Positions 22,522 to 43,828 of a DNA stretch of 50,980 nt are shown here, piece by piece (position 1 is the stretch's first letter; every line of letters begins with the position of its first letter). Position numbers and translations under genes: made by a program. The DNA comes from Thermincola carboxydiphila (GTDB taxonomy: Bacteria > Bacillota > Thermincolia > Thermincolales > UBA2595): assembly GCA_016841725.1 (NCBI GenBank), contig JAENYP010000021.1, positions 1 through 50,980 on the forward strand, given 5' to 3'. The notes beneath the pieces were generated by a model. The model was not told where the DNA came from, ran no database searches, and worked only from the letters and a program-made list of their open reading frames with translations.

Positions 22522-22601
22522 TTCAGGGTAAATATGGCAGGATAATCAGCATAAAATGTCGAATTAACATCTGAATAAGCGATTATAGCGAGGGAAGCTC
22601 A

Positions 22602-23156
22602 ATGAACAGAAGCAGGTTGAAGATAATTGCGGCATTAGTGGCGTTGGCTGTTTTAGCAGGCGGCATCTGGCTTCTGCTGAATAATGCCGGAGAGGTAGAA
22701 CGGGACAATAAAAAGGAATTTACTGAACTAAGGGTGGTTCAGTTTTACCTGCACCTGCCCGAAGATGACATCATCATAGGGCGTGCCGAAGAGGAAAGCT
22801 TTGCAGCGCTGCTGGATTTAATACGACAGACCGTACTTAATATTGGAACCCCTAAATCCGGTGTGGAGAGTTTCTCTCAAATGGAAATTGATGATATAAC
22901 AGAGCAAGATGTTTCTGTCAGTGCATGGCTTATGGAATCCCAAAAAATCAGTACTTCAATGAAAGATGACAGTCCTGACCGGGATATTTATGGCAATGCC
23001 GTAATCACGACAGACAGAGTCTTAGTGGCTTTAGGCGGCAAATATATGGGTACTGTTTTCATTCGGGATCCGCAGGCAGGTCTATGGCAGAGTTGGGAAG
23101 CAGACAGGGACAGTATCCGAAAATTTGCGGAAACCCTCCGCAGCGGGGGCCTGTAA
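22602..23156 (+). CDS. Membrane-anchored hypothetical protein, 184 aa
   Basis: I do not recognise a family. Residues 7-26 form one hydrophobic anchor (LKIIAALVALAVLAGGIWLL), followed by an extracytoplasmic domain of about 155 residues with mixed helix and strand and no cysteine. A weak purine site (GAGGGAAG) precedes ATG 22602. It lies between the decayed PEP-synthase region and the cytochrome locus on the same strand. The 236-base gap that follows contains an imperfect stem near 23195-23230 ending in a T-rich stretch, so it may be transcribed apart from the cytochrome operon. Confidence 0.7.
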   Translation: MNRSRLKIIAALVALAVLAGGIWLLLNNAGEVERDNKKEFTELRVVQFYLHLPEDDIIIGRAEEESFAALLDLIRQTVLNIGTPKSGVESFSQMEIDDITEQDVSVSAWLMESQKISTSMKDDSPDRDIYGNAVITTDRVLVALGGKYMGTVFIRDPQAGLWQSWEADRDSIRKFAETLRSGGL

Positions 23157-23392: not shown

Positions 23393-24028
23393 ATGGCGGA
23401 AGGGGAGAAAGACATCGAATTCAAAAAAGCCGCAATAATATTTGTTACTGCCGCTCTCATAATATTTGCCGCCGGAATCGGTATTGGAGAGGCCTTTATC
23501 TGGGACCGCTACGATACTTCGGATCCTGCAGCCAGGGATATTAAATATCTTGAGCAGGTCCTCAAGCAAGATCCAGAGAGTGAGCAACTGCTGGTGGAAC
23601 TGGGCTGGCTCTATTACCGGACAGGCGACTACCAGAAAGCCAATCAGGCGCTGACCAGGGCTGTTTCTGTTAATAAACTGAACCCTGCGGCACATTTTAA
23701 CCTGGGTCTGGTATACCGTGAAACAGGGCTCTTGGAGAAGGCAGTACAAGAGTTTCAGAGAACACTGGAACTTGATCCTGATTCCAGGTACGCCTATTAC
23801 GAACTGGGAATGATTTATTTCAGCCAGGAGAAATGGGACCAGGCAGCCGCTCAGTTTAGATATGCAGCTGAGAAAGACCCGGCCGGCGCCGACAACTATT
23901 ACCGGCTGGGACAGGCATATGAGAGGATGGGCAAAAATGAGGAAGCCAGGGCTGCCTATCTGAGGGTTCTCGAAATGATACCGGACCATCCGGAAGCCGC
24001 AAAGGCTAATCAGCGTCTAAAGAAGTAA
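23393..24028 (+). CDS. Membrane-anchored TPR protein, first gene of the cytochrome locus
   Basis: A 211-residue protein with one membrane helix (AAIIFVTAALIIFAAGIGIG, near residues 14-33) and about four TPR repeats facing outward (for example LLVELGWLYYRTGDYQKANQAL and AHFNLGLVYRETGLLEKAVQEF). TPRs bind other proteins. The layout recalls the TPR assembly factors of cytochrome c maturation (CcmH/NrfG/CcmI type), so a role in presenting apocytochrome or in complex assembly is a reasonable inference. The start is uncertain: ATG 23393, or TTG 23367 after TAGGAG. The next gene starts 18 bases downstream. Confidence 0.85.
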   Translation: MAEGEKDIEFKKAAIIFVTAALIIFAAGIGIGEAFIWDRYDTSDPAARDIKYLEQVLKQDPESEQLLVELGWLYYRTGDYQKANQALTRAVSVNKLNPAAHFNLGLVYRETGLLEKAVQEFQRTLELDPDSRYAYYELGMIYFSQEKWDQAAAQFRYAAEKDPAGADNYYRLGQAYERMGKNEEARAAYLRVLEMIPDHPEAAKANQRLKK

Positions 24029-24046
24029 AGCGGAGGATAGTATGAT

Positions 24047-24988
24047 ATGCTGCTTAAGATGAAAAAGTGGTTCCGGAAGTACTGCCTGTGGCTTGCTTTG
24101 CTTGGATTACCGGCTTTGGTGGGCATAGGATTTCTGCTTAATTCGGTGGAGGAGCCGGAACTCATAAAATATACCCAAATAAAACCGTATAATGTAATCA
24201 CAGGTCCTCCGGGGCAGCGGCTGAAACGCCCTACCGCTTTGGCGGTAGGGCTGCGCGGGGAAGTATATATTGTGGATTCGGGCAATCACAGAATTACGGT
24301 AATTGAAGAAGATGGCCGGTATACCCTTAATTTTGGAGGGCCGGGGAGCGGCATTGCCGAACTGCGGGAGCCGGTAAGTATTGATATTGCGCCCAATGGC
24401 AATGTATATGTTGCTGACAGGAGCAGAAAAGAAGTTATCGTGTACAATTCCGGTGGAGGGTATCTTTTCACCATTTCCGGTGATGAAGGAAATGGCTTTT
24501 TGCCCCTGAGTGTAAACATTGACAGTAAATCCAATGCCTATGTGTTTGATGCCGGTTCTCGAAAATTCGAAATTTATAATTCTGGGGGCAAAAAGACCGG
24601 TGATTATACGGCTAAACAGCTGAAAAGCTTTGCCGGAATTTCGGCAGCAGATATTGATTTCGAAAATAAATCGATTTATGGTGTGGCTTCAGAAATCCCG
24701 GGTTTCCTGAGGTTTAGCGGAAATTCCGCCAAAACCCTCAGGCATGGGGTTCTGGTTAATCCACGGGGAATTGCTTACAACAGGTCACGGAAAATTGTAT
24801 ATATAAGTGACAGTTCAAACGATAGATTGTATTCGTTTACCGGTAATGGTGATTACCTGGGCGAATTCGGCGGGTCAGGTGACGGGTTTGGCGAATTCAG
24901 TTATCCTGCCGGTCTGGCTTATGATGAACGCGGGAAACTGTATGTTGCCGACAGGGATAATAACAGAGTAGTTATTTACTCTTATTAG
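24047..24988 (+). CDS. Membrane-anchored NHL-repeat beta-propeller protein 1
   Basis: A 313-residue protein with an N-terminal membrane segment (LWLALLGLPALVGIGFLL) and an outside domain of five to six NHL repeats (RPTALAVGLRGEVYIVDSGNHRITV, EPVSIDIAPNGNVYVADRSRK and SYPAGLAYDERGKLYVADRDNNRVVIY). NHL propellers are rigid scaffolds or binding platforms without fixed chemistry. Only 19 bases separate it from the 6-haem cytochrome that follows. The segment RLKRPTALAV recurs in propeller 2 as RLKRPLAVAV, so those two are close paralogues. Binding or orienting the cytochromes is an inference from the alternation of the genes. Confidence 0.9.
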   Translation: MLLKMKKWFRKYCLWLALLGLPALVGIGFLLNSVEEPELIKYTQIKPYNVITGPPGQRLKRPTALAVGLRGEVYIVDSGNHRITVIEEDGRYTLNFGGPGSGIAELREPVSIDIAPNGNVYVADRSRKEVIVYNSGGGYLFTISGDEGNGFLPLSVNIDSKSNAYVFDAGSRKFEIYNSGGKKTGDYTAKQLKSFAGISAADIDFENKSIYGVASEIPGFLRFSGNSAKTLRHGVLVNPRGIAYNRSRKIVYISDSSNDRLYSFTGNGDYLGEFGGSGDGFGEFSYPAGLAYDERGKLYVADRDNNRVVIYSY

Positions 24989-25007
24989 TGGAATTGGAGG
25001 TGGGAAC

Positions 25008-26204
25008 ATGAAAATACTTTTAAAATTACTTGCAGCTGCGGTAATTTTGGGGCTGTTTTCAGTTCCCGTTTATGCCGGGGTGAAGATTGACGGTGTAATC
25101 ATAGACCCCGGAGAAGGGGCAACCAGCGCTGCTACCGTATACTACCAGGGCAGCCCTCCCTTCAGTGTTTACCGCAGTCTTGACGGAACGCAGTGGACTA
25201 CTTGTGCTGCAGGCAGTTCTGAAAATTATTATACAGATAACGATCTGGATAATTATTATAACTATTATTTTAAGATTTCCGACAGTACCGGGAGTTATGC
25301 TATTACTGCTGCTTATCCGCCAAATAATAATGTGCATGGTTCATTTAGGCTAAATTCCAGTCTGTGTGCGGCCTGTCATGTTACTCACAGTGCAAGTGGG
25401 GGCTATCTCCTGGTTCAGCCAACCGGTGTTGCCTTGTGCACTACCTGTCACGACGGTACCCAGAGCAAGTACGATGTGAGGAACGGCAAGGTAAGGCTGG
25501 AGGATACATATGCTGATACCTCAGGCGGTCCCTTCGGGCCTTTGGCATCTTCCGGTCAGCCGGTTGAGATAGTCGTTTATGAGGCTTACAGCTCCTTGAG
25601 TACGGAACCCGTATCGATACTGCCGACTTCTATCCATAACCTGGGGACATTTATCTCCGGCGCTCCCGGAGGTATCAGCGACCGCGGCAGGGGTCTGGGA
25701 TGTATTGACTGTCATGACCCGCACGGCAATACCAGCAATTTCAGAAACCTGAAGACAGTTATCGAAGTTACATATGATGTTTCTGTCAACATTGATTTCC
25801 AGGCCTATGCCAGGACCGACCCGGACCTGACCGGCGGCTACGGTGAGGATATTTACTATAATTCAGGCAGCATTTATTTCTGTTCAGCCTGTCACAGTGA
25901 CTATGCCCAGGCAGCAGGCAGTGGCGCTATTGGGGCTACAACTACCCAGATTCCGGGGCTGGCCATTTCGGCACAGTCGACGAACAAGTTCATGCATGCC
26001 GTGAATACACCCCTTATTTTCCGTGGCGAATACTATTCTTCGTCCCTGCCCCTGGAAACAGGAACAGGTGTGAATGTAGTTGTCTGTCTTACCTGCCATC
26101 AGGCTCACGGTACCTTCAAGACAGGGGAAAATAAGATAACCGGTTCAACGGCCTTGCTCCGCATGGATCGTCAGGGTGTTTGTGAAGAGTGCCACAAGAA
26201 ATAA
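25008..26204 (+). CDS. Secreted six-haem c-type cytochrome
   Basis: A 398-residue secreted protein with a cleavable signal peptide (LLKLLAAAVILGLFSVPVYA). Six CXXCH sites follow, from residue 120 on: CAACH, CTTCH, CIDCH, CSACH, CLTCH and CEECH. The surroundings (CHVTHSA, CHDGTQSKYD, CHDPHG) are those of the cytochrome families with doubled CXXCH motifs. The His that follows each site and further His residues can serve as axial ligands. There is no membrane helix past the signal. The N-terminal 100 residues form a small fibronectin-like domain. Electron relay outside the membrane is expected. The module is repeated in the next cytochrome. Confidence 0.94.
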   Translation: MKILLKLLAAAVILGLFSVPVYAGVKIDGVIIDPGEGATSAATVYYQGSPPFSVYRSLDGTQWTTCAAGSSENYYTDNDLDNYYNYYFKISDSTGSYAITAAYPPNNNVHGSFRLNSSLCAACHVTHSASGGYLLVQPTGVALCTTCHDGTQSKYDVRNGKVRLEDTYADTSGGPFGPLASSGQPVEIVVYEAYSSLSTEPVSILPTSIHNLGTFISGAPGGISDRGRGLGCIDCHDPHGNTSNFRNLKTVIEVTYDVSVNIDFQAYARTDPDLTGGYGEDIYYNSGSIYFCSACHSDYAQAAGSGAIGATTTQIPGLAISAQSTNKFMHAVNTPLIFRGEYYSSSLPLETGTGVNVVVCLTCHQAHGTFKTGENKITGSTALLRMDRQGVCEECHKK

Positions 26205-26214
26205 CGGGGGTGTC

Positions 26215-27225
26215 ATGATGCAATTATCACAGCTGGCTGCCAGGTTGATACCGAAAAGAGTAAAACAAAAAGACCTCATTATTGCTATCCTTGTCCTGAT
26301 AATTATTGCCCTGCTGTTTTTTGGCTGGCACTATCTGAAGACAAAACGCAATCCCATTGACCAGGGTGTTTCTCTTCCGGGAGCGAGATATGAGTACATC
26401 TTTTCCATTTATGATTCACAGCGTTTAAAAAGGCCTCTTGCAGTAGCTGTCAGTTCGTGGGGTGAAATAGTGGCTGCAGACAGTGTGAATCACAGGATTG
26501 CTGTCTTTGACAGGAATGGAAATTTTGTCAAAGCCCTGGGCAGTCCCGGTTCCGGTGCCGGACAGTTCAACTACCCCACCGGTTTGGCCGTCAGCGGCAG
26601 GAAAATTTATGTTGCCGACTTTTATAACCAAAGGGTACAGGTAATTGATTTTGAAGGGAAACAGCTGGGAGTTATCCCGTCACCCCGGGAAAGACAGCAA
26701 ACGGGTGCGGTGGTGATGCCGGTTGCGGTTGCTGTAGACAGCCGGGGTAATATCTATGTTTCTGATGTGAGCCGACAGAGGATTCTGGTTTTTGATGACA
26801 GTGGAAAGTTCGTCAGGGAATTTGGCAAGGCAGGAACAGGCCATGGTGAGTTGTCCTATGTAAACGGTATATCTGTTGATGATGATGCAGACGGGAAAAT
26901 ATACCTGTCCAATTCCAATAATGGCAGGATTGATGTTTATTCAATGGAGGGTAAATTTATCAAGACCCTGGTGGGCGCCAATATTCTGACCAATCCCAAG
27001 GGCATAGCTTTTGACGGTGAAAACAACCGTATCTATACAGCAGACACGTTTGCCCACAGGGTTTACGGTATCCTTGAAGATGGCAAGGTCTTTGAAGAGA
27101 TTGGAAACAGAGGCATGACCGGCGGGAGTTTTAATTTTCCCACCGGTGTAACTATCGACAGTGACGGCAGGCTGTATGTGGCTGACCGTGAAAATAACCG
27201 TATTGAAGTTTACGGCAGGGACTAG
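26215..27225 (+). CDS. Membrane-anchored NHL-repeat beta-propeller protein 2
   Basis: A 336-residue protein with one strong anchor (LIIAILVLIIIALLFFGWHYL, residues 19-39) and six NHL repeats outside, for example RPLAVAVSSWGEIVAADSVN, YPTGLAVSGRKIYVADFYN and FPTGVTIDSDGRLYVADREN. The start at 26215 has GGGGGTG just before it; an upstream in-frame Met at 26176 would lie inside the cytochrome gene. It begins 10 bases after the preceding cytochrome and ends 30 bases before the next, so each cytochrome has a propeller partner. It could position the cytochrome or bind a redox partner; there are no catalytic residues visible. Confidence 0.9.
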   Translation: MMQLSQLAARLIPKRVKQKDLIIAILVLIIIALLFFGWHYLKTKRNPIDQGVSLPGARYEYIFSIYDSQRLKRPLAVAVSSWGEIVAADSVNHRIAVFDRNGNFVKALGSPGSGAGQFNYPTGLAVSGRKIYVADFYNQRVQVIDFEGKQLGVIPSPRERQQTGAVVMPVAVAVDSRGNIYVSDVSRQRILVFDDSGKFVREFGKAGTGHGELSYVNGISVDDDADGKIYLSNSNNGRIDVYSMEGKFIKTLVGANILTNPKGIAFDGENNRIYTADTFAHRVYGILEDGKVFEEIGNRGMTGGSFNFPTGVTIDSDGRLYVADRENNRIEVYGRD

Positions 27226-27255
27226 AAATGAAATTCGCCGGAAGGGGGGGAAGGC

Positions 27256-29676
27256 ATGAAGCACAGGATGCGCAAATATTATCTTGCAATTGCCCTGATA
27301 GCAGCAGTAGCTGTAACGGGTATAGTGTGTCATACTCCCCCGGCAGAGTCTCAGCTGGGAACCTATTTCTATGATCAGTTCAACCTGGGTGGTTATGACT
27401 GGACCCCGGTAAGTGGGAGTTGGACTGTCGCCAACGGTGAATATGCAGAAATTATTGACCCGTCTTCTGATGAGGCGTGGTCGGTTGCCGGTTCTTCCAG
27501 TTGGTTTGATTATGCTGTTGAGACCAAAGTATATTCAACTGATTCTGATGGCACCATTTCCCTTGCGGGACGCTGGGCTAATGAGAACAACTACTATGCT
27601 CTGGAGTACAGTGATACAGGTACTCCGGACTCTGCAAAACTCATGCTCTATAAAAGAGTTAACGGCCTCAGGGTTGACCTGGCGGAATGGAAACGGGTCA
27701 ATGGCGTTGTTTACAACTATAACATACCGTTTATCGGGGAGAATGCTGCCGAAGTCAGTCAGAACCCTTATCCGGTTGGCATGAAGCTCAAGTTTTTGGG
27801 GGCTAATATTGATGTCTATGTTAATGATGTCCGCATCGGATATACTTCAGATTCGTCCCTTTACTATGGCAAAATAGCCCTTGGCGAATACAACAGGAAG
27901 GCCTATTTTGATGAAATCTATGTCTGGGATGTAACCCCACCAAGGCTGATTACAAATGCGGTCCAGGAAGTTGTCGGGAATGCGGCGGCAGTTTCCTTTT
28001 CCACTGATGAATACAGTTCATACGCGGTCAACTACAAGGTATATACTTCCCCAACATGGGACTTCAGCAAGGTAAGCACAGTCAGGGCCTTAAGCCACAG
28101 TGTCGATCTGACAGGGCTGACCACAGACACTACTTATTTTTATATGATAACTGTTAAAGATGCTGCAGGTAACGAAAAATCAAGTGAGATTGGCGAATTT
28201 ACCACACCTGTGGACCTCGATTCTACGCCTCCGGTTATTTCAGATGTTGTTTACAGTGATGTGACGGCCAATTCGGCGGTGATATCATGGACCACTGATG
28301 ATTCAGCCAATTCCACTGTGGAATACGGTATCAGCCCAGGTTCCTATAAATGGGCAATTTCCTATGACGACAAGGTAACCGGTCATAGTATCAGCCTGAA
28401 AAAACTATCCGGTCAGACCACGTACTATGTCCGGGTTAAGTCCAGGGACCTGTCCAACAACATGGCTGTTTCCGGTGAGCACAGTTTCAAGACCCTTAAA
28501 GATCTCAAACCAAGGATAACCAAGGTGACAACAGGTTCCAGTCCCAGTGTCAATGTTGCTGTGTATTGGGAACAGGTTCCGGCTGCCGTAAGGTATCACG
28601 TTTATGTATCAACAAGTAACCAGTGGGGGGCAGTACCGGACTATACGGTGGCAGAGACAGGCGCCGGCAGATATTCGTATATGAAGCCCGGGCTGACTTC
28701 TTATCTCAATTATTTTATCAAGGTAGTTGCCGAAGACGGTACTGATACTGCTTATACCGTTGCCAAGGCTTTTCCGCCTGATGCCAACCCTCACGGCTAC
28801 TATTGGGACAACCCTGACCTGTGCCAGAACTGCCATGTTACCCACAGCGCTCTGGGGCCCAGGCTGATAACTGAAGTAAATACCGATAGGCTGTGCATTA
28901 CGTGCCATGACGGGACCCAGAGTAAATATGATGTCTTGCGGGGGAAATACAGGGGACCGGAAAGCCTTGATGTGTCTGAAGATCCCGGCAGGTCCACCTG
29001 GTATGCATCCATTGGCGGGCCCTATGGCTCTTTTGAAACCCAGACAGTTATAGAAGAGGCTTATGTACCGACCTCAAGACATGACCTAAACATATACCAT
29101 TATGCGGCAACAGGAAACAATATCGAGGTTTTTGATACTGCAGAGTCGCGCCTGTCATGCGCCTCGTGCCATGACCCCCATGGTTCGGAGAATTACCGCA
29201 GCCTGCGTGAAAATATGCGGGTCAGCAATGACCCCACGGAACCGCTGATTAAAACAGAGGCCTATGCGGTAACTTATGCCGCCTATGAAAAAACCACTTA
29301 TGTCAGTGGAGCTGTCGAGTTTTGCGGGGCATGCCACAGTGACTTTAACCAGGGAGCCGGTTCCAGCAGAACCGCCCTTACAATAACACAGCAGCCCGGG
29401 ATGAAATTATCGACTTCTTCAATGCATATGTTCATGCACCCGGTTAATATTGAAGCAAAGTACGTGACCAATGCCGGCGTAGCTATCCCAGCCTCTGTGT
29501 ATTTACCTTACGAGAACGGGAAAATCATCTGCCAGACCTGTCACTTTTCCCATGGCACCACCATGGAAGGGACACACATCCGCCGTGACGGCTTCCCTTC
29601 GACGGTTCTGAAAAGGTTTAATGAAGACGACGGTTGTGAGGACTGCCATGACAAAACCAGGTATCCTGACGAGTAG
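27256..29676 (+). CDS. Six-haem cytochrome with a glucanase-like and three fibronectin III domains
   Basis: An 806-residue secreted protein with a signal segment (LAIALIAAVAVTGIVC; Cys25 could be lipid-modified, but the context is not a good lipobox). A concanavalin-like domain follows (about 35-228, YDQFNLGG ... YAEI). Three fibronectin III domains span about residues 231-322, 324-418 and 419-514. The six-haem block is at 523-798: CQNCH, CITCH, CASCH, CGACH, CQTCH and CEDCH. The haem block repeats that of the 398-residue cytochrome site for site (CHVTHSA, CHDGTQSKYD, CHDPHG, CxACHSDxxQ), so the two share a recent ancestor. The extra domains look like a spacer or surface anchor. It lies 72 bases before the giant cytochrome gene, with tandem repeats between. 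Confidence 0.93.
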   Translation: MKHRMRKYYLAIALIAAVAVTGIVCHTPPAESQLGTYFYDQFNLGGYDWTPVSGSWTVANGEYAEIIDPSSDEAWSVAGSSSWFDYAVETKVYSTDSDGTISLAGRWANENNYYALEYSDTGTPDSAKLMLYKRVNGLRVDLAEWKRVNGVVYNYNIPFIGENAAEVSQNPYPVGMKLKFLGANIDVYVNDVRIGYTSDSSLYYGKIALGEYNRKAYFDEIYVWDVTPPRLITNAVQEVVGNAAAVSFSTDEYSSYAVNYKVYTSPTWDFSKVSTVRALSHSVDLTGLTTDTTYFYMITVKDAAGNEKSSEIGEFTTPVDLDSTPPVISDVVYSDVTANSAVISWTTDDSANSTVEYGISPGSYKWAISYDDKVTGHSISLKKLSGQTTYYVRVKSRDLSNNMAVSGEHSFKTLKDLKPRITKVTTGSSPSVNVAVYWEQVPAAVRYHVYVSTSNQWGAVPDYTVAETGAGRYSYMKPGLTSYLNYFIKVVAEDGTDTAYTVAKAFPPDANPHGYYWDNPDLCQNCHVTHSALGPRLITEVNTDRLCITCHDGTQSKYDVLRGKYRGPESLDVSEDPGRSTWYASIGGPYGSFETQTVIEEAYVPTSRHDLNIYHYAATGNNIEVFDTAESRLSCASCHDPHGSENYRSLRENMRVSNDPTEPLIKTEAYAVTYAAYEKTTYVSGAVEFCGACHSDFNQGAGSSRTALTITQQPGMKLSTSSMHMFMHPVNIEAKYVTNAGVAIPASVYLPYENGKIICQTCHFSHGTTMEGTHIRRDGFPSTVLKRFNEDDGCEDCHDKTRYPDE

Positions 29677-29680
29677 CAGG

Positions 29681-29760
29681 ATGAGCACACGAGACGATGT
29701 TAAGATGAGTAACAAGATGATGTAAGATGAGTAACAAGATGATGTAAGATGAGTAGTGGG
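29681..29760 (+). repeat. 22-bp tandem repeats with tiny reading frames before the giant cytochrome
   Basis: Two exact 22-base units (29701-29722 and 29723-29744) carry TAAGATGAGTAACAAGATGA. They are preceded by a diverged unit (from 29681) and followed by a partial one (29745 on). Each full unit contains ATG AGT AAC AAG ATG ATG TAA, a six-codon frame with its stop, and units differ in phase because 22 is not a multiple of three. The last copy runs into the giant cytochrome start. Confidence 0.85.
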
Positions 29761-32700
29761 ATGATGAAGATGATGCTGAAGCTGAAAGAAGCAATAATAT
29801 ATCACAAAAAGCTGCCGGGTCTGATAGTAATATTGGCCGGGCTGTTACTCATGCCTGCAATTGCTCTCAGCTGGCCTACCAACCATCTTGACAGCTCCCA
29901 AACAGGGAACAAGCCTTACTGTATTTCCTGCCACGGTTATAAGACAGGATACCTTACCATAGAAAAAATCAATGGGATTACTCCACGGACCTCAAGTGTT
30001 ACTGTCAACCGTGACAGCAGCTTTACCGTAGATTTTAAGACCGTTGGTCTGGGGTATGGGCGTTTTACGGTTGCCGGCGCTGTCCAGGTGCCGGATACAT
30101 CCAAATGGCTGGTGGATAAAAAGGACCTGTCATCTGATATTCCTTGGTTTGTTGCCACACAGGACACCTCTTGGAATGCGCCCATCAACAGCCCTTACGT
30201 ATGGGCAACGGCTTTTCCCGATACCGGCAACCCCAATGCCCAAAAGGGTGTTACCCTTGATGACGGGACGGTCGCCGGGGCTTTTACCGACAGGAACCAG
30301 ACCGCACATGATGAGCAGTTCACTGCCAAGGTAACGGTAGACGGTTCTGTCCCCTATGGGAGCTATAATATCAAGCTGTGGGGTATCGGTACGTCCAGCA
30401 ACGGGATGTGGGGTTATAATGAAAAGACGGTGACGGTAAATGTCTATGATGACAACACCAGCCCTGTCCTGCCAGGTTCGGAAAACCTCTCAGCATCAGG
30501 CATTACCGGTTCTGCTATAACCATAAGCTGGAATGCCGCCACTGACAGCCAGGCCGGTGACAGCGGTATGAACGGGTACGAGATCTATCGCTCTGAGGAT
30601 TCGGGAGCCGCTTTCAGGTATGTGGGGTATTCCTATACAAACAGCTACAGTGATACCGAACTGAATGCGGCGACAAATTATGAGTATAAGATTAATGCGG
30701 TTGATAATGCCGGAAACAGTACTTTTTACACGACGACGGCGGCAGCTGAAACCCTGAGCTCCAGGACAGATGCCGAGGCGCCGGCTACACCCACAGGACT
30801 TAATGCGTTCCTGATTGCCAACCCTGCAGACCCCAATGGAAAAATCGTTAAACTCACCTGGAATGCCAATACCGAGGGGGATGTCCAGGGCTATAAGGTT
30901 TACCGGGCAACTGCAGCGGCAGGACCTTATGCTGCTATGAGTGAAGCCCTGACAACCGAGGTGGAAAAGCATACTATAGATGCAGCAAATGATATTGAGG
31001 CATGGTCTTTTTATTACACTGACACTGAAATCCGTTACGGGACCACCTATTTCTACAAGGTCAGCGCAGTGGATATTGCCGGTAAGGAATCTACCCTGAC
31101 CACATATACCTCGGCAACGCCGGCAGTGGACCTCGGCGATCCGGACAACCCCAATGGTCCCCATGGCAATTATAAAAACAAAGAGGGCATGTGCCAGAAC
31201 TGCCACTCCATGCATTCCGCCAGAGGTCAGGAACTGATTTACTACAGTACTATTACTGATTCCTGCTACACTTGTCATGACGGGTCCCAGAGCAAATATA
31301 ACACCAAGGCTTCCTTTGACCCGGTATATAACCCGTCTCACCACAAAATTCCTGAGGGGCGCTATTCCTGTGATGCCTGTCATAACCCGCATTACAGCCC
31401 TGAATACGAACCTGAGGTGGATAATACGGTTTATGCGCCGCGTTTGCTGGCAACGATATCAAAGGAAGATGGCGAAATAAAAAGAGGCGGTAATGAATTC
31501 TGCTGGGCTTGTCATGGGGTTAATTCAGACCTGCCCAACCCCTTTGGGAGGGATCATCAAACCGCATTTATGGAGTCGAAACATAATTCAGAGCTTCCCA
31601 GTTCCCAGATAACGCACATTACCTGCAGGAACTGCCATGTTCCGCACGGGTCCAAGGATTATCCCCTGATGATTTCCTCCAATTCGGCCAATTTATGTAT
31701 TTCCTGTCACGAGGATAATGGATTTACCCAGACCCAGCCAAGGCTGGATAATCCTGATTATCCTGATGTACCGGATACTGTAATCAGCGGGGTATACCTG
31801 AACAACCAGTCAAATGATTATCTGGGTACAGTCCATGAAAAAAACTTTTATGGGCGCAATACCTGTACCATGTGCCATGAACCTCACGGTAATCTGAACA
31901 ACAGGTATATGCTGCGTGAGCGGTATAATGATTTCTTCAGTATTACGGAAACGGTTTATGGTATTGACTATGGGCCGGTAGATTGGATCACTGACTGGTC
32001 CCAGGAAGATGATACCATATGCTTCCGCTGCCATGACAGCCGGTATTATGTCGCTTTTAACGGCGATAATGAACCCATTGAACCGGTAATAGGCAGCAGG
32101 TTCGGGGCAGGTAATGCCAAAAACTATCACAGCCATGCTGCTGAACTAAAGGTCAGCTGCCGGGCCTGCCATGATCCCCACAGTGGTGAGAGTAAGTTTC
32201 AGGATACAAGTAACGCGGATGATACATATGACTGGAACCTGAACAACAGCCACTATATCAATTTTGACTGGGCCATACAGGTAGATGTTGCCACCTACAG
32301 CAGCAACAAAGACAGGCTTGCCTTCATTCCCAGTTACGGTTCTGCCGGTGAGGAGGTCGGTTTTTCCTGTGCCATATCCTGCCACCAGTATGACCACTGG
32401 ATAACAGGAGATACGTATAAATCCTATGTTCGTACCAAGGATATGCCGCCATTAAAATGTGCTGCCTGCCATGATTATGATGATTTTGACACTAATTCAA
32501 GGCACCCGGTTCTTGAAGCCGGTCCGGAGTCGGGTTACAAGGTGAATTGTGAGCAGTGCCACTTTGAAGACCATACTATGCATACCCTGAAAAACCCCTA
32601 TGGCTTAAAGAGTACCATAGTATCCCTTGATGACTGGACCGGTGAGCCTGAGGAGACCTCATTGCCGCTAGTAATCAACCCCAATACAGGGGAAGAAGTG

Positions 32701-35700: not shown

Positions 35701-38700
35701 TTTAATGTCTGGGTAAAGGATTTCAAGGGAAATATCAAAGTGGGTCCTTTTAACCCGGCCGATGAGCAGTATAGTTTCGGAAGCCTTAGGTTTTCCTTTG
35801 TCCTGGACGACCAGTGGAACCTGAGGGATAACTGGTGGTATACAGTGGACATCTATGCTGAATATTTGCTGGGCAGAGCCAGGCCCAAGCTTACCAAAAT
35901 AGCGGACTATGGAGCCATGTTCCTGGTCAGGAGTAAAGACGAAACAGCGCCTGGCGCACCTTCTTCCCTGACGGCAGCTAATGCAGCGGCTCCATATACC
36001 CATGAAAAAATGCAGCTTTCCTGGGGTACATCAACCGGGGACCCGGTTTCCTACAATCTTTACCGGTGGTCTGCCCGTGACAGCCTGTTCCTGATTGCCG
36101 GCTCCAGCCTGGCCCCGGGAACAACCTTTACCGATAACGGGCTGAAGCCGGAGACTTCTTATTCCTACCAGGTGAAAGCAGTTGACAGGTATGGCAATAT
36201 GTCTGCTATAACTGATTCCAGTCCGGCATGGGTGACTACCGGAGCAGAGCCTGCAGATACCACGCGGCCCAATACACCAACCAGTTTCCGGGCCCAGAGG
36301 GACAGCTCCTCACAGGTAACCACTTACTGGAAGAATATTAACGATACTACCGATGGGGTTGTGGGGTACGCCGTTTACCGCAGCCGCAACGGTTCTGACT
36401 GGCTGCGGGCCGGGGTAACCTATACCAAACAGTACACAGATACCGGCCTCAGGGGAAATACGCTTTATTACTACTATGTGACTGCATTTGATAAGGCCGG
36501 GAACCACTCAGAGCCATCTACAGAATTTGCGGTAACCACACTGCGGTCCGGGGAGGATTCCAAGGAAGGCGCTCTCTGCATGTCCTGCCATGAGTCAGGT
36601 TCGTCGAACCCGATTTATGCGGTCACCCATACCATAGGTTCAGCCTATGTCTACAGCAAGCACAATGTGGATTATGCTGTTATGACATTTAAGGATGGCA
36701 GTATCTATGAGGGGAACTGTACCAAGTGCCACGTGCCTCACGGTTCAGTATATGAACACCTGCTTAAGGCGTCTGATGACAATAACCTGTGCTATAGCTG
36801 CCATACAGCAGCTTCCAATACCGGCAAGTTTTCCGGGAGGGCATATTTTGACCCCTCTGCCCATGGGCAGACAACTGCGGCAGGGGCTAACTCCAACACA
36901 CCCGGGTACTGGCCTGGGGGTGACGGAGTTCCTGCGCGGACAACTGTTGATGCGGGTAAGTGTTATAACTGCCATGCCCCGCACGGCAGGTTTGACCCGG
37001 AGACGGGGCAGTATATCAAGAGTTCGGCCTGGAGAGGCACAGGGGAAAACCTCAACGACCTCTGCTACACCTGCCATGAAGTTGATCCCTACGGCGAATA
37101 TGGTGGAAAGACCGTGTATGAGGAAACCTCCCATGGTGATACCGGTTTAAATGCCAAAATGAAATTTGACGGGTATGGCCCCGGCGAGTGTACCAACTGT
37201 CATGAACCACACGGCAGCCAGTACCCCGGGATGCTGAGATTCCCGGTTAATGATGTCACCAAACCCAACCAGCTGTGCCTGGAGTGTCATGATAGAGATG
37301 ATATACTTGTTGATACCGGATTGTTTGACGGCTCTGCTGTTTATGTCAACTCATCCCATGGCCTGAAGGCCCAATGGTTTGAGGAACTGAATACAACAGC
37401 GGGAGTTGTCTATAACAAGACTTCATTCCTTCCGGGGATATGCCTGAACTGCCATAACTCCCACGGCAGGGAGGATGCCGCCGGCGAAACAATTCCCAAA
37501 ATGCTGGTAGTAGATGATGGGGCTAATAATGAAATCTGCAATAAATGCCATGAATACCCCACCATCTCTTCAGTGACTGTAGGATATCCGGGAATTGACA
37601 AGTTCAGCTCCGGAGTCCATAAAGATAAGGCCTTATGGCCGGGCGGTGAACACTATACTGAGCCGACACCTGTGGAAAAGACAGGTAAGTGCATTAACTG
37701 CCATGACCCCCATGGGACAGCGGAAATTGATGCCTGGGGCAGGGTTACCAATATAACCGGGAATACCTTTGACTGGGAAGAGGACCTGTGTTACGAATGT
37801 CATGACGGGACAACCACAGGGGCAGATATGAAGTTCTGGCCCGAGCAGGGCATCGGCCACCTGCCGGGATATACCCTGGGTAAACATTCCTTTAATGAAG
37901 TTATGGATGATTCCCTGGTAACCCGGACCCGGCACGTGGAATGCCTGGACTGCCACAATGTGCATACAGTCCTGGATATTGCCGGAACTGAAGCCCTTAC
38001 TACCAGACTGTCGAAAGCCTTCAAGGGGGTGTCGGGGGTGGAACTGACCGGCATGCCGGCTGTCCCCAACCCGAACACAAATCCGGAATACTGGACAGAC
38101 CCGGCCAAAAACCCGTACGTAGTTGCCGGCTATGGTTGGGACGAGATACCTGATGTCTCTGTTAAAGACTCAAGATTACAGGAATATATGGTGTGTTTCA
38201 AGTGCCATTCTGATTATACTGTTGCCAGTACCGGCGGAAGAAGGGTCATCGGTTATTTTAATGCTAATAATCCCTCGAACCATGGATTTTCAATAACAGT
38301 AAAAAACAGTTTTGCCAATGCCAGGATTGAAGCAAACGGGGCCACCACCCTGTCCGGTTCCGGTACCCCGGGTTGGGCATTTAATCCCAGTAACCCCGAG
38401 CACAGGCACAATATTACCTGTTCCGACTGCCATGGCAACAGCCAGCAGCTCGGCGGTCCGCGCGGGCCTCACGGTTCCAATTATGATTTTATGCTGCGGG
38501 CAGACCCCAGGAGTACCACTTTCTGTACCCAGTGTCACGCCCAGTCGGTCTATGGCAGTGACTCTTCCGCGGGGTCAGGGACAGGAACCGGGTCCAGCGG
38601 GTCACACAGCAGAAGCAACCACTATACTGCCAACCCGACATCAGGGCAAAACTTTACCCTGTCAGACGAAGCTGTGGATGCCTTTGGCGCCCTTTATGGC

Positions 38701-38931
38701 AACAACTGGTGCCGTTACTGCCACTTCGGAGGAATTACCCAGAGCAGCAACAGGTATATGTCGGTCCATGGCGCCAACGGAAAGTTCACCGACAACCGAG
38801 GGGATTACAGGACTTACAAGGGAATGAACGGGTTCTTTATCTCATATACGAGTCCAAGTACCTGTTATACCACAGGCAATACAACGACAGAACCTTTTGC
38901 CTGTGCACATTCTACCGGCAAAGGTTACTAA
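29749..38931 (+). CDS. Giant 45-haem-motif cytochrome with six fibronectin III domains
   Basis: A 3060-residue secreted cytochrome. An N-terminal hydrophobic segment (LIVILAGLLLMPAIALS) is followed by one CXXCH at 58 and an Ig-like stretch to about 232. Fibronectin III domains lie at 235-336 and 341-460. A long haem block spans 481-1594 (25 CXXCH and 3 CXXXCH). Fibronectin domains follow at about 1615-1715 and 1718-1815, then an Ig-like region, then two more at 2064-2165 and 2170-2268. A second haem block covers 2277-2992 (16 CXXCH). Total: 42 CXXCH plus 3 CXXXCH. The haem blocks are built of CHVPHG and CHDPHG doublets. There is no sortase, SLH or C-terminal anchor. It could carry electrons over long distances. 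The start is uncertain because the ribosome site is weak and lies in the tandem repeats. Confidence 0.95.
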   Translation: MSSGMMKMMLKLKEAIIYHKKLPGLIVILAGLLLMPAIALSWPTNHLDSSQTGNKPYCISCHGYKTGYLTIEKINGITPRTSSVTVNRDSSFTVDFKTVGLGYGRFTVAGAVQVPDTSKWLVDKKDLSSDIPWFVATQDTSWNAPINSPYVWATAFPDTGNPNAQKGVTLDDGTVAGAFTDRNQTAHDEQFTAKVTVDGSVPYGSYNIKLWGIGTSSNGMWGYNEKTVTVNVYDDNTSPVLPGSENLSASGITGSAITISWNAATDSQAGDSGMNGYEIYRSEDSGAAFRYVGYSYTNSYSDTELNAATNYEYKINAVDNAGNSTFYTTTAAAETLSSRTDAEAPATPTGLNAFLIANPADPNGKIVKLTWNANTEGDVQGYKVYRATAAAGPYAAMSEALTTEVEKHTIDAANDIEAWSFYYTDTEIRYGTTYFYKVSAVDIAGKESTLTTYTSATPAVDLGDPDNPNGPHGNYKNKEGMCQNCHSMHSARGQELIYYSTITDSCYTCHDGSQSKYNTKASFDPVYNPSHHKIPEGRYSCDACHNPHYSPEYEPEVDNTVYAPRLLATISKEDGEIKRGGNEFCWACHGVNSDLPNPFGRDHQTAFMESKHNSELPSSQITHITCRNCHVPHGSKDYPLMISSNSANLCISCHEDNGFTQTQPRLDNPDYPDVPDTVISGVYLNNQSNDYLGTVHEKNFYGRNTCTMCHEPHGNLNNRYMLRERYNDFFSITETVYGIDYGPVDWITDWSQEDDTICFRCHDSRYYVAFNGDNEPIEPVIGSRFGAGNAKNYHSHAAELKVSCRACHDPHSGESKFQDTSNADDTYDWNLNNSHYINFDWAIQVDVATYSSNKDRLAFIPSYGSAGEEVGFSCAISCHQYDHWITGDTYKSYVRTKDMPPLKCAACHDYDDFDTNSRHPVLEAGPESGYKVNCEQCHFEDHTMHTLKNPYGLKSTIVSLDDWTGEPEETSLPLVINPNTGEEVPAYKEFCWQCHGADTELPGIPVTRKIVSDQRTYFINKPHSLLEREGTDNPYGPDMDIACLKCHENHASSNVRLLRNNIDGVAIDAAADIGKINACMACHDGSPAEADISAKYNAATSGGHFIKANPNKKLLCTECHEAHGTTSKKYLLDTDNKYNTGITFPQNYTDPGASREFCLACHPPGEEGQTARVYNTVYTLKVGEVLIAPLPYPERITDHQAEGRECIICHDPHKPWPATGGEDGCYDCHSRPNGEATDIESLAGLVSEPGSGKVSHHNITDGTTADNTCMYRCHLAHPHDDRADHLKLPEKLLCLNCHDHDSVSPDKSPYTIDSHLFDGKPHDYEYLIRTYPADNSDLLGNCDKCHVPHGSDYKPLLRLPKDDLCVSCHNGVTTNSMGDPIEDIKTLYEKTGHKYTGSLTAKMYCDECHVPHGSTNDFYLRDDNNYAPQQTLTYVGETVYQVEFPQNMKSITFSYEPRKFCTTCHREYAGDSVDSWVYYTSETTPGGQVNIPSIPLIGDNGVTINEHKAGETKSCTDCHNPHDPEPVGSDKDCFICHGDDGYAYNIEELTGLEISGEQTWPVGKTAKTSFHPITDPNIQYDEANDTGNDCMVMCHTEHVHNPRANVLKDKRSTAGDVTAPEMPADFEAAGSSSIQVDLSWTASTSPDVFGYYIYRKAGTGEWSRYGVVNSRVYAPAKVWFYDGGLKPNTTYSYKVSAHDRAGNESEQTTEQTVSPVISDDKQVPSIPTNLKVTVPGEGTTRLTLSWTASIDNCKIVQYRVYRADSLSGEYSLIGSTGNTAFTDSGLKPESRYYYRVSAEDFNDNLSEWCAPVSGITQAAYAAVGAGNYVEADTGTTWIKLYDQTKTAITSSFPLGKTVYVQVYCDETGLPDAPDTAVVRIRNHLNTMLAEYTSYSHPDGKADIFEWPVLIKSEWYSGVYVLEVELTHGGTTYVNTHEAIIAGATGKGFKFYRDSAYTEQAYVFAPGDTVYVKATSDSIDAAFSSFNVWVKDFKGNIKVGPFNPADEQYSFGSLRFSFVLDDQWNLRDNWWYTVDIYAEYLLGRARPKLTKIADYGAMFLVRSKDETAPGAPSSLTAANAAAPYTHEKMQLSWGTSTGDPVSYNLYRWSARDSLFLIAGSSLAPGTTFTDNGLKPETSYSYQVKAVDRYGNMSAITDSSPAWVTTGAEPADTTRPNTPTSFRAQRDSSSQVTTYWKNINDTTDGVVGYAVYRSRNGSDWLRAGVTYTKQYTDTGLRGNTLYYYYVTAFDKAGNHSEPSTEFAVTTLRSGEDSKEGALCMSCHESGSSNPIYAVTHTIGSAYVYSKHNVDYAVMTFKDGSIYEGNCTKCHVPHGSVYEHLLKASDDNNLCYSCHTAASNTGKFSGRAYFDPSAHGQTTAAGANSNTPGYWPGGDGVPARTTVDAGKCYNCHAPHGRFDPETGQYIKSSAWRGTGENLNDLCYTCHEVDPYGEYGGKTVYEETSHGDTGLNAKMKFDGYGPGECTNCHEPHGSQYPGMLRFPVNDVTKPNQLCLECHDRDDILVDTGLFDGSAVYVNSSHGLKAQWFEELNTTAGVVYNKTSFLPGICLNCHNSHGREDAAGETIPKMLVVDDGANNEICNKCHEYPTISSVTVGYPGIDKFSSGVHKDKALWPGGEHYTEPTPVEKTGKCINCHDPHGTAEIDAWGRVTNITGNTFDWEEDLCYECHDGTTTGADMKFWPEQGIGHLPGYTLGKHSFNEVMDDSLVTRTRHVECLDCHNVHTVLDIAGTEALTTRLSKAFKGVSGVELTGMPAVPNPNTNPEYWTDPAKNPYVVAGYGWDEIPDVSVKDSRLQEYMVCFKCHSDYTVASTGGRRVIGYFNANNPSNHGFSITVKNSFANARIEANGATTLSGSGTPGWAFNPSNPEHRHNITCSDCHGNSQQLGGPRGPHGSNYDFMLRADPRSTTFCTQCHAQSVYGSDSSAGSGTGTGSSGSHSRSNHYTANPTSGQNFTLSDEAVDAFGALYGNNWCRYCHFGGITQSSNRYMSVHGANGKFTDNRGDYRTYKGMNGFFISYTSPSTCYTTGNTTTEPFACAHSTGKGY

Positions 38932-38954
38932 GTGCACCAATATGGGTGACAGTG

Positions 38955-38994
38955 GGTGACAGGTTAACAGTTGCAAACCTGTCACCTGTTTTTT
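38955..38994 (+). terminator. Terminator after the giant cytochrome gene
   Basis: A perfect 11-bp stem, GGTGACAGGTT with AACCTGTCACC, is followed by TGTTTTTT. Partial read-through would supply ResB and ResC; full termination would require a promoter in the short gap that I cannot see. Confidence 0.85.
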
Positions 38995-39022
38995 AGCAGA
39001 TAGGAAAGGAAGCTGAGTCTTT

Positions 39023-40375
39023 TTGGCGGGAGAGATGAAAAACAGGGTAATTAAAATGCTGGTTTCTTCCAGGACGGCCCTTGGCCTGATGTCCGGAATA
39101 CTGTGCTATATTATTGCTGCTGTGTATCTTTCACCCCTGACAGGTGACGGGCAGTCATTGTTTGGGGGATGGTGGTTTGCTGCTGCCCTGTCCTGGCTGG
39201 CCCTGAACATTATGGTGTGCTCTGTAAGAAGGGCATCAAGGCTGTATGGCGGCAGGGGGGGGGGATCGGAAACCAGGCATGGCAAGCGCCCGCTCAATAT
39301 TAATGAGACATTGACCGGCAGCGGGCCTGGAGAAATTGAAGCGGGGCTGAGGCGGAAGGGCTTTAAACTGCACCCTGTTGGTGAACGGGTGCAGGCTGAC
39401 GGTGAATGGGCACAGGCTGACGGTGAATGGGCACAGGCTAACGGTGAATGGCTGCAGGCAGTGAAAAATCCCTTTTCCCCATGGGGGTCGGTGGTGTTTC
39501 ACCTAGGCCTGACCGTTATTCTGGCCGGCTTCGGAGTTTCATCGATATTTGGCATGAGCGGAGATGTTATGATCCCCGAAGGGGTTGCCGTACGCTTTCC
39601 GGATGACCTCAGCATCACTGCACAGGGACCGTTTTATTCTGCTGCGGAGCCTTATCTGGTCGGCTTGCGTGAATTTACCGTCAGTGAAGTTGATGGTGAG
39701 ATAAGTCAGGTAAGGGGTATCCTTGATTTTATGTTGGGTGACTACCGTAATCCTTACCCAACTGAGATCAACAAACCTGCCAGGCATGATGGACATTACT
39801 GGCGCATCAAGGATTACGGTTATTCGGCACACCTGATTATCAGGGATAAATCGGGGAACACAGTTATTGATGATTATGCCAATATAGGTAAGACCGGCGG
39901 CAGGCATCATGATGAGTTCCCCCTGCCTGATGGCTCAAGCTTCACTATTGATTTTCTGGAACCGGATTCCGCAGGCAGAGCCGGACAGGCCGATAGGCAA
40001 GCAGGGACTGCCCGGGCGGCATTGCGGATTGTCTTTGCCCAGCCGGGTGAGGCCGGGGTTCTTGCAGCAGGGACAGTTCACCGGGGGGCAGAAGGAGATA
40101 TAGGTGACTATCGGGTTAGCTTTCCAGAATACCGTTACTGGGGTCTTTTTGATGTTTCCAAAGATCCCGGGGAACCGCTGGTTTATCTCGGGGGACTGAT
40201 GGCAGCTGCCGGCCTGGCCTGGCGCGGATGCTTTATCAGGAAAAGAGTCTGGCTGAGGTTTGCGGCTGAAAGTGGAGACACTTTGGTTTATTGGTCAGCC
40301 AGGGCGGATTACTTCAGCAGGCTGCTTGAAAACGAGGTCAGGGAGCTTCTGGATGACAAAGGGGGAAACGCATAA
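39023..40375 (+). CDS. resB: ResB-like cytochrome c biogenesis protein (Ccs1)
   Basis: With ResC it forms the system II cytochrome c synthase that delivers haem and attaches it to CXXCH motifs outside the membrane. The 450-residue protein has membrane segments near residues 15-35, 45-62 and 155-175, a long outside domain and a final one near 385-405. The C-terminal extracytoplasmic half (VYLGGLMAAAGLAWRG) is typical. A 21-bp tandem repeat inserts GEWAQAD-like copies in the loop at residues 120-147. The start is TTG 39023, ten bases after AAAGGAAG; ATG 39035 is possible but too near GGGAG. The stop overlaps resC in TAATG. Confidence 0.9.
   Translation: MAGEMKNRVIKMLVSSRTALGLMSGILCYIIAAVYLSPLTGDGQSLFGGWWFAAALSWLALNIMVCSVRRASRLYGGRGGGSETRHGKRPLNINETLTGSGPGEIEAGLRRKGFKLHPVGERVQADGEWAQADGEWAQANGEWLQAVKNPFSPWGSVVFHLGLTVILAGFGVSSIFGMSGDVMIPEGVAVRFPDDLSITAQGPFYSAAEPYLVGLREFTVSEVDGEISQVRGILDFMLGDYRNPYPTEINKPARHDGHYWRIKDYGYSAHLIIRDKSGNTVIDDYANIGKTGGRHHDEFPLPDGSSFTIDFLEPDSAGRAGQADRQAGTARAALRIVFAQPGEAGVLAAGTVHRGAEGDIGDYRVSFPEYRYWGLFDVSKDPGEPLVYLGGLMAAAGLAWRGCFIRKRVWLRFAAESGDTLVYWSARADYFSRLLENEVRELLDDKGGNA
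39380..39463 (+). repeat. 21-bp tandem repeat inside resB
   Basis: Four in-frame 21-base units start at 39380, 39401, 39422 and 39443. They encode GERVQAD, GEWAQAD, GEWAQAN and GEWLQAV in a loop of the ResB protein. Confidence 0.9.
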
Positions 40376-41223
40376 TGTCACAGCCGGAGATGTACTTTTT
40401 CTGGATTACTGTATTCTGTTATGTTGCGGCATTTTTTTTGTATCTGTACCGGTTTTTATCGGGCAGCGCTAAGGCTGATAAGGTCGGGACATGGCTGGCT
40501 GCGACTGGCGCTGCGGTGAATTTCCTGGTGATTACAGCCCGCACCGTTGCGACAGGGCATCTACCGGTGCGCACCCTTTATGAGCTTAATATTGTAGTGG
40601 CTTTCCTTGCAGTAGTTGTGTTTTTGCTGGCCCGCAGGTATTTTCCCTGGGTCAGCCTTCTTGGTATTGTATCGGTTTCTTTTGCTTTTCTTGTGATGGG
40701 CTGGGGTTATGCCGATTCCACAGCGGCCTTACCCCTTACCCCTGCATATAAGAGCAGATGGCTGGCAGTACATGTTTTGTTTGCCCTGACTTCCACCGGA
40801 TGTTATGTGCTGGGCGCGGCTGCAGGAATTTTTTACCTCCTCAAGGCCAGGTTTGTTCCCGGCGCTGAGCCTGAGAGATACCGCATGCTGCCTGAAAAAG
40901 AGATTCTGGAGGAGTCAGGGGTCAAATTCATCCTGCTCGGCTTTATCGCCGGAACAATCATGATTATCAGCGGTTCTATCTGGGCCAAGCTGCTTTGGGG
41001 CAACTACTGGGGATGGGATCCCGTAGAAACCTGGTCTCTGGTAAGCTGGCTGATATACGGGATATTCCTGCACCTCCGCTTTATATATGCCTGGAAGGGA
41101 AGGAAACTTGTGTGGCTCGGGCTGGGCTGTCTGGTGACCAATATCATCAGTTTCTGGGCTGTGGGACTGGTTACCCCTGACACATATCATACCCTGGACC
41201 AGATAACAAGGCCAATAGAATAG
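40375..41223 (+). CDS. resC: ResC/CcsA cytochrome c biogenesis protein
   Basis: Haem-handling half of the system II synthase, 282 residues with about eight hydrophobic segments. The WWD motif WGNYWGWDPVETWSLVSW (near residues 207-225), which holds haem for transfer, is complete, and conserved histidines flank it. The gene is coupled to resB by the TAATG overlap. The thioredoxin-like ResA and the CcdA partner, which reduce the apocytochrome cysteines, are not in this window and must lie elsewhere. Being at the end of the cytochrome locus, it is probably the dedicated synthase for these unusually haem-rich proteins. Confidence 0.95.
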   Translation: MSQPEMYFFWITVFCYVAAFFLYLYRFLSGSAKADKVGTWLAATGAAVNFLVITARTVATGHLPVRTLYELNIVVAFLAVVVFLLARRYFPWVSLLGIVSVSFAFLVMGWGYADSTAALPLTPAYKSRWLAVHVLFALTSTGCYVLGAAAGIFYLLKARFVPGAEPERYRMLPEKEILEESGVKFILLGFIAGTIMIISGSIWAKLLWGNYWGWDPVETWSLVSWLIYGIFLHLRFIYAWKGRKLVWLGLGCLVTNIISFWAVGLVTPDTYHTLDQITRPIE

Positions 41224-41242
41224 CAGTAAGGGGCGGTTTTCG

Positions 41243-42190
41243 ATGGAACATGGTTTTCTAAAAAATAAATTCTACAGGAAAGCTGCAGCAGCCGGGATTC
41301 TGATTATTGTAATAACATTAATAGGCTGTTTTATGTATACCGGTCCTGACAGAACTGTCAACCTGAAACACAGGCAGCGGGGAGCGGAAGAGAAACCGGT
41401 GTATCTGGGCAGTATTGACTTAACCAGGTTTTCAGGGCAGGGTCGGCAACCGGTTTGGGTATACGTCTATGGTGACCGGGTTTATGTGAGTTATTATGGG
41501 GAAGAACGGATTGAGGTGCTGACTCCGGAAGGTGAGAAGGTCAGGGACTTTCGCGCCAGGATAACCAAGGCTGACGGCAGGCCTGAGGGTATGGTGCGAA
41601 CAGGAGACCGCCTGCTGGTGGCAGATTATCATAATGGTGGAGTCGGGCTTTATGCTGATAGTGGCAGGCTGCTTGATGCATATTATGAGACCCCGGGTAA
41701 ACGGGGCATTAAGCCTGTCGGGGTAACTGCGCGGGACAGAGTGTTCTATATTACTGATGTCAATATCAACGGGTGGTTTACCGCGGGTGATGACGGGGTT
41801 TTCCTTACAGAAATAAAGGGTGACACTGAGAAAGATGGGCTGCAATTCCCCTATGGGATAGCCGTAACAGATGACGGCAGGGTTATGGTGACAGACCCGC
41901 CGGGAAACAGGATAAAGGTATTCACGTGTGCCGGCTGGAATATAGGGGACCTGCCCACAAGTGAGGTTGGTATGAAGAATCCACAGGGACTGGCAATTGA
42001 CGGCCTGGGGCGGATACATGTGGTGGATAACGGTACAGGCCGGGTGTTTGTATATGATGATGAAGGCAGTTTTATGTTTACCTATGGTCAGAGGCTGCAG
42101 AACCCTTCAACCGTTGCTGCTGGCAGCGCCGGGAGAATATTATATATAGCTGATACAGCAAACGGAATGCTTTCTGTCTGGGGGTATTGA
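41243..42190 (+). CDS. Membrane-anchored NHL-repeat beta-propeller protein 3
   Basis: A 315-residue protein with an N-terminal membrane segment (AAAAGILIIVITLIGCFMY). Cys29 follows LIG, so a lipoprotein signal is possible. The outside propeller has five to six NHL repeats, including FPYGIAVTDDGRVMVTDPPG and KNPQGLAIDGLGRIHVVDNG. It is more diverged than propellers 1 and 2, lacking the RLKRP lead-in. It sits 19 bases after resC and ends the cytochrome locus; a terminator follows. A structural role alongside the cytochromes is inferred from gene order alone. Confidence 0.88.
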   Translation: MEHGFLKNKFYRKAAAAGILIIVITLIGCFMYTGPDRTVNLKHRQRGAEEKPVYLGSIDLTRFSGQGRQPVWVYVYGDRVYVSYYGEERIEVLTPEGEKVRDFRARITKADGRPEGMVRTGDRLLVADYHNGGVGLYADSGRLLDAYYETPGKRGIKPVGVTARDRVFYITDVNINGWFTAGDDGVFLTEIKGDTEKDGLQFPYGIAVTDDGRVMVTDPPGNRIKVFTCAGWNIGDLPTSEVGMKNPQGLAIDGLGRIHVVDNGTGRVFVYDDEGSFMFTYGQRLQNPSTVAAGSAGRILYIADTANGMLSVWGY

Positions 42191-42223
42191 AAAGATTAAC
42201 CTGATCAGCAGGAATTTTTCGAC

Positions 42224-42261: not shown

Positions 42262-42279
42262 ATTAATTTGGAGGCAGTT

Positions 42280-43822: not shown

Positions 43823-43828
43823 TTAAAG

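Follow-up and report, generated by a model that had tools for sequence, protein, structure and literature searches.

A gene cluster in Thermincola carboxydiphila (GenBank assembly GCA_016841725.1, contig JAENYP010000021.1) was found to encode two six-haem cytochromes that, as judged from their sequences, are members of the OmcS/CwcA family (Cyt6a and Cyt6b), a giant multihaem cytochrome (CytG), and a ResB-ResC pair for haem attachment, together with a TPR protein and three NHL propellers. The cluster lies in a window of 50,980 nucleotides, which is the whole of contig C9 in a 3.88-Mb genome of 40 contigs (G000; labels beginning with C, G, and L denote contigs of this source genome, genomes, and fetched loci, respectively). 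On balance, the cluster probably functions as an assembly module for OmcS-type stacks and a giant cytochrome, with its own haem attachment, that passes electrons across the Gram-positive wall. Such a wall is 20-80 nm thick, and CwcA was previously the single proposed case of electron passage across it. A sequence-only reading of the same DNA had described nine close-packed, co-oriented genes, and this description is borne out with small corrections. Nine open reading frames (ORFs) occupy 23315-42190 on the + strand with intergenic gaps of -29 to +91 nt. The first start was moved from 23393, an internal ATG, to 23315, and the start of the TPR gene is uncertain among 23315, 23366, and 23393. A tenth conserved gene (42268-43749, + strand) lies 77 nt past the last propeller gene, NHL3. 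It is BchE-like and belongs with the cluster, the boundary of which was moved to 43749. The protein families named in the earlier reading agree with the Pfam matches, and a propeller gene indeed precedes each six-haem cytochrome gene; the third propeller gene instead follows ResC.

Evidence for the kinship of the six-haem proteins with OmcS comes from motifs, profiles, and a structural model. Cyt6a and Cyt6b each carry six CXXCH motifs, against a mean of 0.01 and 0.004, respectively, in shuffles of the same composition (0.12 for CytG). Both have signal-like N-termini by hydropathy, and no wall-sorting motif was found in the cytochromes. A single-sequence phmmer search of the PDB with Cyt6a gave no match. 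A profile of 19 Cyt6 relatives placed OmcS (6ef8/6nef) on top in the PDB at 2.8e-19, the next cytochrome being OmcE at 5.7e-7, and a wider profile of 30 sequences again had OmcS on top (4.4e-19). As a guard against the compositional bias of multihaem proteins, the search was repeated with two control profiles built from clusters of this kind, and neither gave OmcS at E <= 0.001. The best matches of these controls were OmcE for a CytG segment (7e-8) and NrfH for the 12-haem proteins (2e-14). In the family alignment, the six CXXCH motifs follow an OmcS-like order within one chain. Cyt6a has 12 histidines in total, namely six in the haem motifs and exactly six others, and the latter coincide with the conserved columns H110, H127, H210, H239, H330, and H367. 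In an alignment of 30 sequences that span Bacillota, Chloroflexota, and Actinomycetota, five of the columns never vary, and H127 is present in at least 90%. The latter residue supplies the last histidine of CXXCHxxH at the first haem, a motif that OmcS has at the aligned position; its OmcS counterpart would be His16, presumably an inter-subunit ligand.

The structure of the Cyt6a core was modelled by AlphaFold2 without templates (predicted local distance difference test score, pLDDT, 65.5; predicted template-modelling score, pTM, 0.69). In VIA-align, this model matched OmcS (6ef8) end to end over 221 residues (Z 10.1; model 3-296, chain 1-406), and the corresponding Z for OmcE was 3.2. In other words, Cyt6a is predicted by its model to share the OmcS fold. 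The family membership of Cyt6b is assigned from the sequence of its C-terminal OmcS/CwcA-type core. A quick tree placed Cyt6a and Cyt6b in two separate clades with Carboxydocella sequences beside them (91% support in the Shimodaira-Hasegawa-like approximate likelihood ratio test), and the CwcA-like paralogue elsewhere.

CytG is 3060 amino acids (aa) long and carries 42 CXXCH and three CX3CH motifs. A single motif near the N-terminus is followed by a block of 28 and, beyond a long stretch that bears fn3, by a block of 16. All 42 CXXCH motifs are in register in each of five CytG relatives (97, 90, 54, 54, and 36% identical). Of the CX3CH motifs, those at 1269 and 1590 are present in every one of these relatives, and that at 874 is clear in four of them and ambiguous in Carboxydocella. 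The 45 haems of CytG are well supported at the motif level, and the haem numbers of the earlier reading (6, 6, and 45) are upheld by the motif counts, the shuffle controls, and the conservation in CytG relatives. Elsewhere in the genome (G000:C35:22000-48000; L027, L028), ResB- and ResC-like genes lie between further giant cytochromes of ~2,400 aa.

ResB and ResC are identified by sequence as a system II pair for cytochrome c biogenesis. They resemble the known system II (ResB/ResC, CcsB/CcsA) in the presence of both proteins and of a tryptophan-rich motif (WGNYWGWD, with the conserved histidine). Unlike the known system, the window copy is tied to one cytochrome cluster, and its ResC falls under the NCBIfam equivalog cut-off (TIGR03144, 155 bits against 187.6). 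This ResB gene is one of three in the genome, so the local pair is either a dedicated set or a duplicate. Wolinella has special haem lyases, and by analogy the CX3CH sites of CytG might be the target of the local ResB-ResC.

The TPR-NHL-six-haem cassette recurs within the source genome. Five such cassettes are present, in the window and at C25:278k (L025), C25:290k (L026), C25:452k (L074), and C29:21k (L075), and at C3:54k (L076) a TPR-NHL pair is followed by two seven-haem genes. Multihaem clusters hold nine of the 11 NHL proteins (PF01436) of the genome; the remaining two are one at C19:170k and a 4194-aa NHL-repeat protein on C35 (L078:4032-16616), whose fetched stretch holds no cytochrome gene. 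In L026, the gene order is 10-haem, 12-haem, 17-haem, TPR, NHL, and 6-haem. The haem numbers and gene count match TherJR_1117 (10 haems) to TherJR_1122 (CwcA), and we infer from this gene order, rather than from sequence comparison, that L026:8192-9292 is CwcA.

A published model of CwcA from T. ferriacetica is based on OmcS, and CwcA was proposed to form stacks that traverse the wall (PMC7911101; restated in PMC12203936); the CwcA/ImdcA locus was given as Tfer_0070-0075 and TherJR_1117-1122 (PMC7911101). If L026 is equated with this locus, the published OmcS-like stacking proposal applies to a paralogue of the window proteins. Cyt6a is ~26% identical to the presumed paralogue. The two loci are alike in genus, in a secreted OmcS-like six-haem cytochrome, which here stands behind TPR and NHL genes, and in the proposed wall-crossing stack. 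The window locus differs in that it encodes a pair of six-haem proteins, the 45-haem giant, and a local ResB-ResC, and is without the 10-, 12-, and 17-haem genes.

The arrangement is also conserved across genomes, a check that the sequence-only reading had put forward: four related genomes share the gene order, and the core cassette recurs in many others. The four, G001, G002, G003, and G009, have the full order TPR-NHL-Cyt6a-NHL-Cyt6b-CytG-ResB-ResC-NHL. In G003 and G009, identity is 54-57% for the cytochromes, 59% for ResC, and lower for ResB, TPR, and NHL1. Carboxydocella (L021/L040) keeps NHL-Cyt6-CytG-ResB-ResC. Among 58 six- or seven-haem genes with the upstream gene in view, an NHL gene lies directly 5' of 31, and a TPR gene precedes the NHL gene in 23 of these 31. 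Relatives of Cyt6 were found in Thermincola, Carboxydocella, Desulfosporosinus, Thermaerobacter, Paenibacillus, and many metagenome-assembled genomes of Bacillota, as well as in Chloroflexota and Coriobacteriia, and an even sample of the phylum gave a match in 24 of 299 genomes. In Paenibacillus athensensis, an OmcS/CwcA-type six-haem gene (L051:9368-10975) has a TPR gene upstream.

How would such a module work? Gene order, the haem motifs with their conservation, the kinship with OmcS (by sequence for the family, by model for Cyt6a), and the conservation of the cassette were observed here; we infer the export, haem loading, and polymerization of the cytochromes, their contact with the propellers, the electron direction, and the final acceptor. 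Cyt6a, Cyt6b, and CytG would be exported via their signal-like N-termini, and the local ResB-ResC would attach haem outside the membrane. Cyt6a and Cyt6b may then stack in the manner of OmcS into bis-histidine haem chains through the thick wall, and CytG probably serves either as the outer terminus or as another conduit made of a single chain. In the membrane, the base and the platform for assembly could consist of the TPR protein and the propellers, each of which has a single N-terminal anchor. Every six-haem cytochrome has one propeller as its partner, which suggests a dedicated propeller for each, and the constancy of this pairing suggests a base or assembly role. The propellers may carry the secreted cytochromes, as the earlier reading proposed. 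Quinol oxidation would probably be contributed by 12-haem proteins with an NrfH-like part, which sit in sister clusters.

Several observations weigh against an OmcS-type stacking module. The case for it consists of genes, sequence kinship, and the Cyt6a model, and homology to OmcS does not prove polymerization. The confidence of the Cyt6a model is middling, and Foldseek alone found nothing significant for it in the PDB (best E 7.5). The OmcZ paper likewise reports that fold searches with OmcS and OmcE recover nothing beyond these proteins and their near homologues (PMC9473688). The core model of Cyt6b (pLDDT 52.7) gave no match and is too poor to judge the fold. The window locus is without a quinol-oxidizing cytochrome of its own. 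Finally, a similar locus (L040) is present in Carboxydocella thermautotrophica 41, a strain reported not to reduce Fe(III) (PMC6085454), and possession of the locus is therefore not enough for mineral respiration. Of the earlier proposal of an extracellular electron-transfer system, the electron-transfer role is strengthened by the OmcS/CwcA membership of the six-haem proteins; iron reduction is not implied.

A less likely arrangement, although one that deserves to be taken seriously, is that the six-haem proteins act as a relay of wall-fixed monomers or short stacks without filaments, and that CytG alone conducts over long range. CwcA reportedly could not be stabilized in solution, and no Thermincola cytochrome filament is described in the papers covered here (PMC7911101). 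With 45 conserved haem motifs, one CytG chain could in principle span a large distance, and the N-terminal extension of Cyt6b, ~500 residues with fn3-like domains, is unusual for a filament subunit. The kinship with OmcS, including the CXXCHxxH histidine with its presumed inter-subunit role, argues for stacking instead, and in a monomer all six haems would need ligands from the one chain. It seems improbable that the locus serves to respire or detoxify a soluble acceptor (nitrite-, sulfur-, or organic-type) at the cell surface, with CytG as a catalytic reductase and no mineral or electrode involved. CytG segments do resemble DmsE-family decahaem models (NCBIfam) and OmhA (6qvm), and the Fe(III)-negative Carboxydocella strain would fit such a role. 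However, the six-haem core is OmcS/CwcA-like and not reductase-like, and the 77 non-motif histidines of CytG for its 45 motifs, with the haems taken together, give no pointer to open catalytic haem sites. That the genes are chance neighbours without joint function is scarcely credible, since their order is conserved where the cytochromes are only 54-57% identical and the cassette is repeated within the genome. A porin-cytochrome conduit (Mtr/Pcc) was rejected, as no beta-barrel porin was present among the Pfam or NCBIfam matches of the cluster.

The co-inherited BchE-like enzyme, a B12-binding radical S-adenosylmethionine (SAM) protein, is the least explained part of the locus. Its gene scores 440 bits against TIGR02026 (BchE), with the next family at 168, and fails the BchE equivalog cut-off of 481 bits. 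The product is 37-39% identical to the full-score BchE match of G058 (795 bits), and its relatives (46-68%) lie in clusters L021/L022, L026, L029, L031, L043, L045, and L046. BchE-like genes were counted in 61 related genomes as matches of > 400 bits, the over-cut-off match being excluded. Such a gene is present in 14 of the genomes and a Cyt6 match in 14, both occurring together in 12 (Fisher p 4e-9) and, outside the own family and order, in four (of five and six; p 3e-4). These p values are not strict, given that the genomes share ancestry and that the 400-bit threshold was chosen with the scores in view. Moreover, 17 of 24 BchE-like genes lie <=13 kb from a Cyt6-type match, and in L043 and L045 the BchE-like gene is directly 3' of ResB-ResC. 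In phototrophs, BchE acts on a porphyrin. It is conceivable, albeit a long shot, that the BchE-like enzyme modifies the haem of the nanowire cytochromes, or a precursor of it, and that the local ResB-ResC attaches the altered haem. Genes resembling those of haem or sirohaem biosynthesis, recognized by eye from N-termini, were noted beside the related clusters L023, L027, L029, and L031, including one in the source genome (C35).

The closest structural reference is the OmcS nanowire of Geobacter sulfurreducens (6ef8/6nef), which shares six bis-histidine haems and the motif order, and to which the end-to-end fold match of Cyt6a applies. In contrast to OmcS, the window host is Gram-positive and has no outer membrane, a fn3-like N-terminal extension is present, and the system is known here from genes and a model. 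In Geobacter, an NHL gene presumably adjoins omcS. OmcS homologues are recorded elsewhere (PMC10954620, PMC12545173). In Dethiobacter alkaliphilus, NHL and TPR genes occur among multihaem genes, and the authors suggest assembly or orientation roles (PMC10376724); NHL genes in multihaem clusters are likewise reported from Desulfovibrio ferrophilus (PMC9769857). Neither account, as far as available, describes a fixed TPR-NHL-OmcS-like triad, and the available Dethiobacter text (PMC10376724) does not mention OmcS, ResB, or radical SAM. The triad, a conserved 45-haem partner, and a BchE-like link were not found in the prior literature, a weak negative given its partial coverage. Three points go beyond the sequence-only reading, namely the kinship with OmcS, the paralogous copies of the cassette, and the BchE-like gene linked to it. 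The locus and its relatives show that, in Bacillota and Chloroflexota, cytochromes of the OmcS/CwcA type come in a repeated TPR and propeller cassette, to which a giant cytochrome and dedicated genes for haem attachment are often added. The assembly and anchoring of nanowires, which are poorly understood, become testable via named conserved genes.

Table 1. Predicted genes of the cytochrome cluster and its upstream neighbour, with the evidence for each assignment.
Feature	Position	Strand	Evidence
Small membrane-anchored protein, cluster membership doubtful	22602..23156	+	Relatives upstream of cluster: L018 (66%), L020 (38%)
TPR protein, one N-terminal membrane helix	23315..24028	+	Pfam TPR_2 5e-30; hydropathy
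NHL1, membrane-anchored NHL propeller	24047..24988	+	PF01436 7e-26; one N-terminal hydrophobic helix
Cyt6a, predicted secreted six-haem cytochrome, OmcS/CwcA family	25008..26204	+	6 CXXCH; profile; model
NHL2, membrane-anchored NHL propeller	26176..27225	+	PF01436 1e-41; hydrophobic helix
Cyt6b, predicted secreted six-haem cytochrome, OmcS/CwcA-type core	27256..29676	+	Haem motifs, Pfam, alignment; tree clade
CytG, giant multihaem cytochrome	29749..38931	+	45 haem motifs; Pfam; conservation in relatives
ResB, cytochrome c synthase system II	39023..40375	+	PF05140 6e-29
ResC/CcsA-type haem lyase	40375..41223	+	PF01578 5e-33; Trp-rich motif
NHL3, propeller with N-terminal anchor, lipobox-like LIGC	41243..42190	+	PF01436 1e-16
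B12-binding radical SAM protein, BchE-like	42268..43749	+	TIGR02026 440 bits; homologous clusters

The small protein upstream of the cluster had no Pfam or NCBIfam match, and the true start of NHL2 is probably a few codons inside the called ORF. No terminator-like site on the + strand was found in the cluster gaps in a scan of 22400-29800 and 38500-45000, which is weak evidence. Such a site is present at 44788-44805, after a sigma-factor gene. This gene (44096-44779) is SigH-like, begins 346 nt past the radical SAM gene, has the strong terminator-like hairpin behind it, and may be a regulator of the cluster. A promoter scan did no better than on shuffles, and Rfam gave zero matches in 20000-46000. 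The window also contains spore-coat genes (Coat_F at 20252 and SafA-like at 9873), which fit a spore-forming Gram-positive host. Other genes in it are a glycyl-radical (PFL-like) enzyme gene with a radical SAM activase-like gene (17056-20126) and an operon for a branched-chain amino-acid ATP-binding cassette (ABC) transporter (12230-16847).

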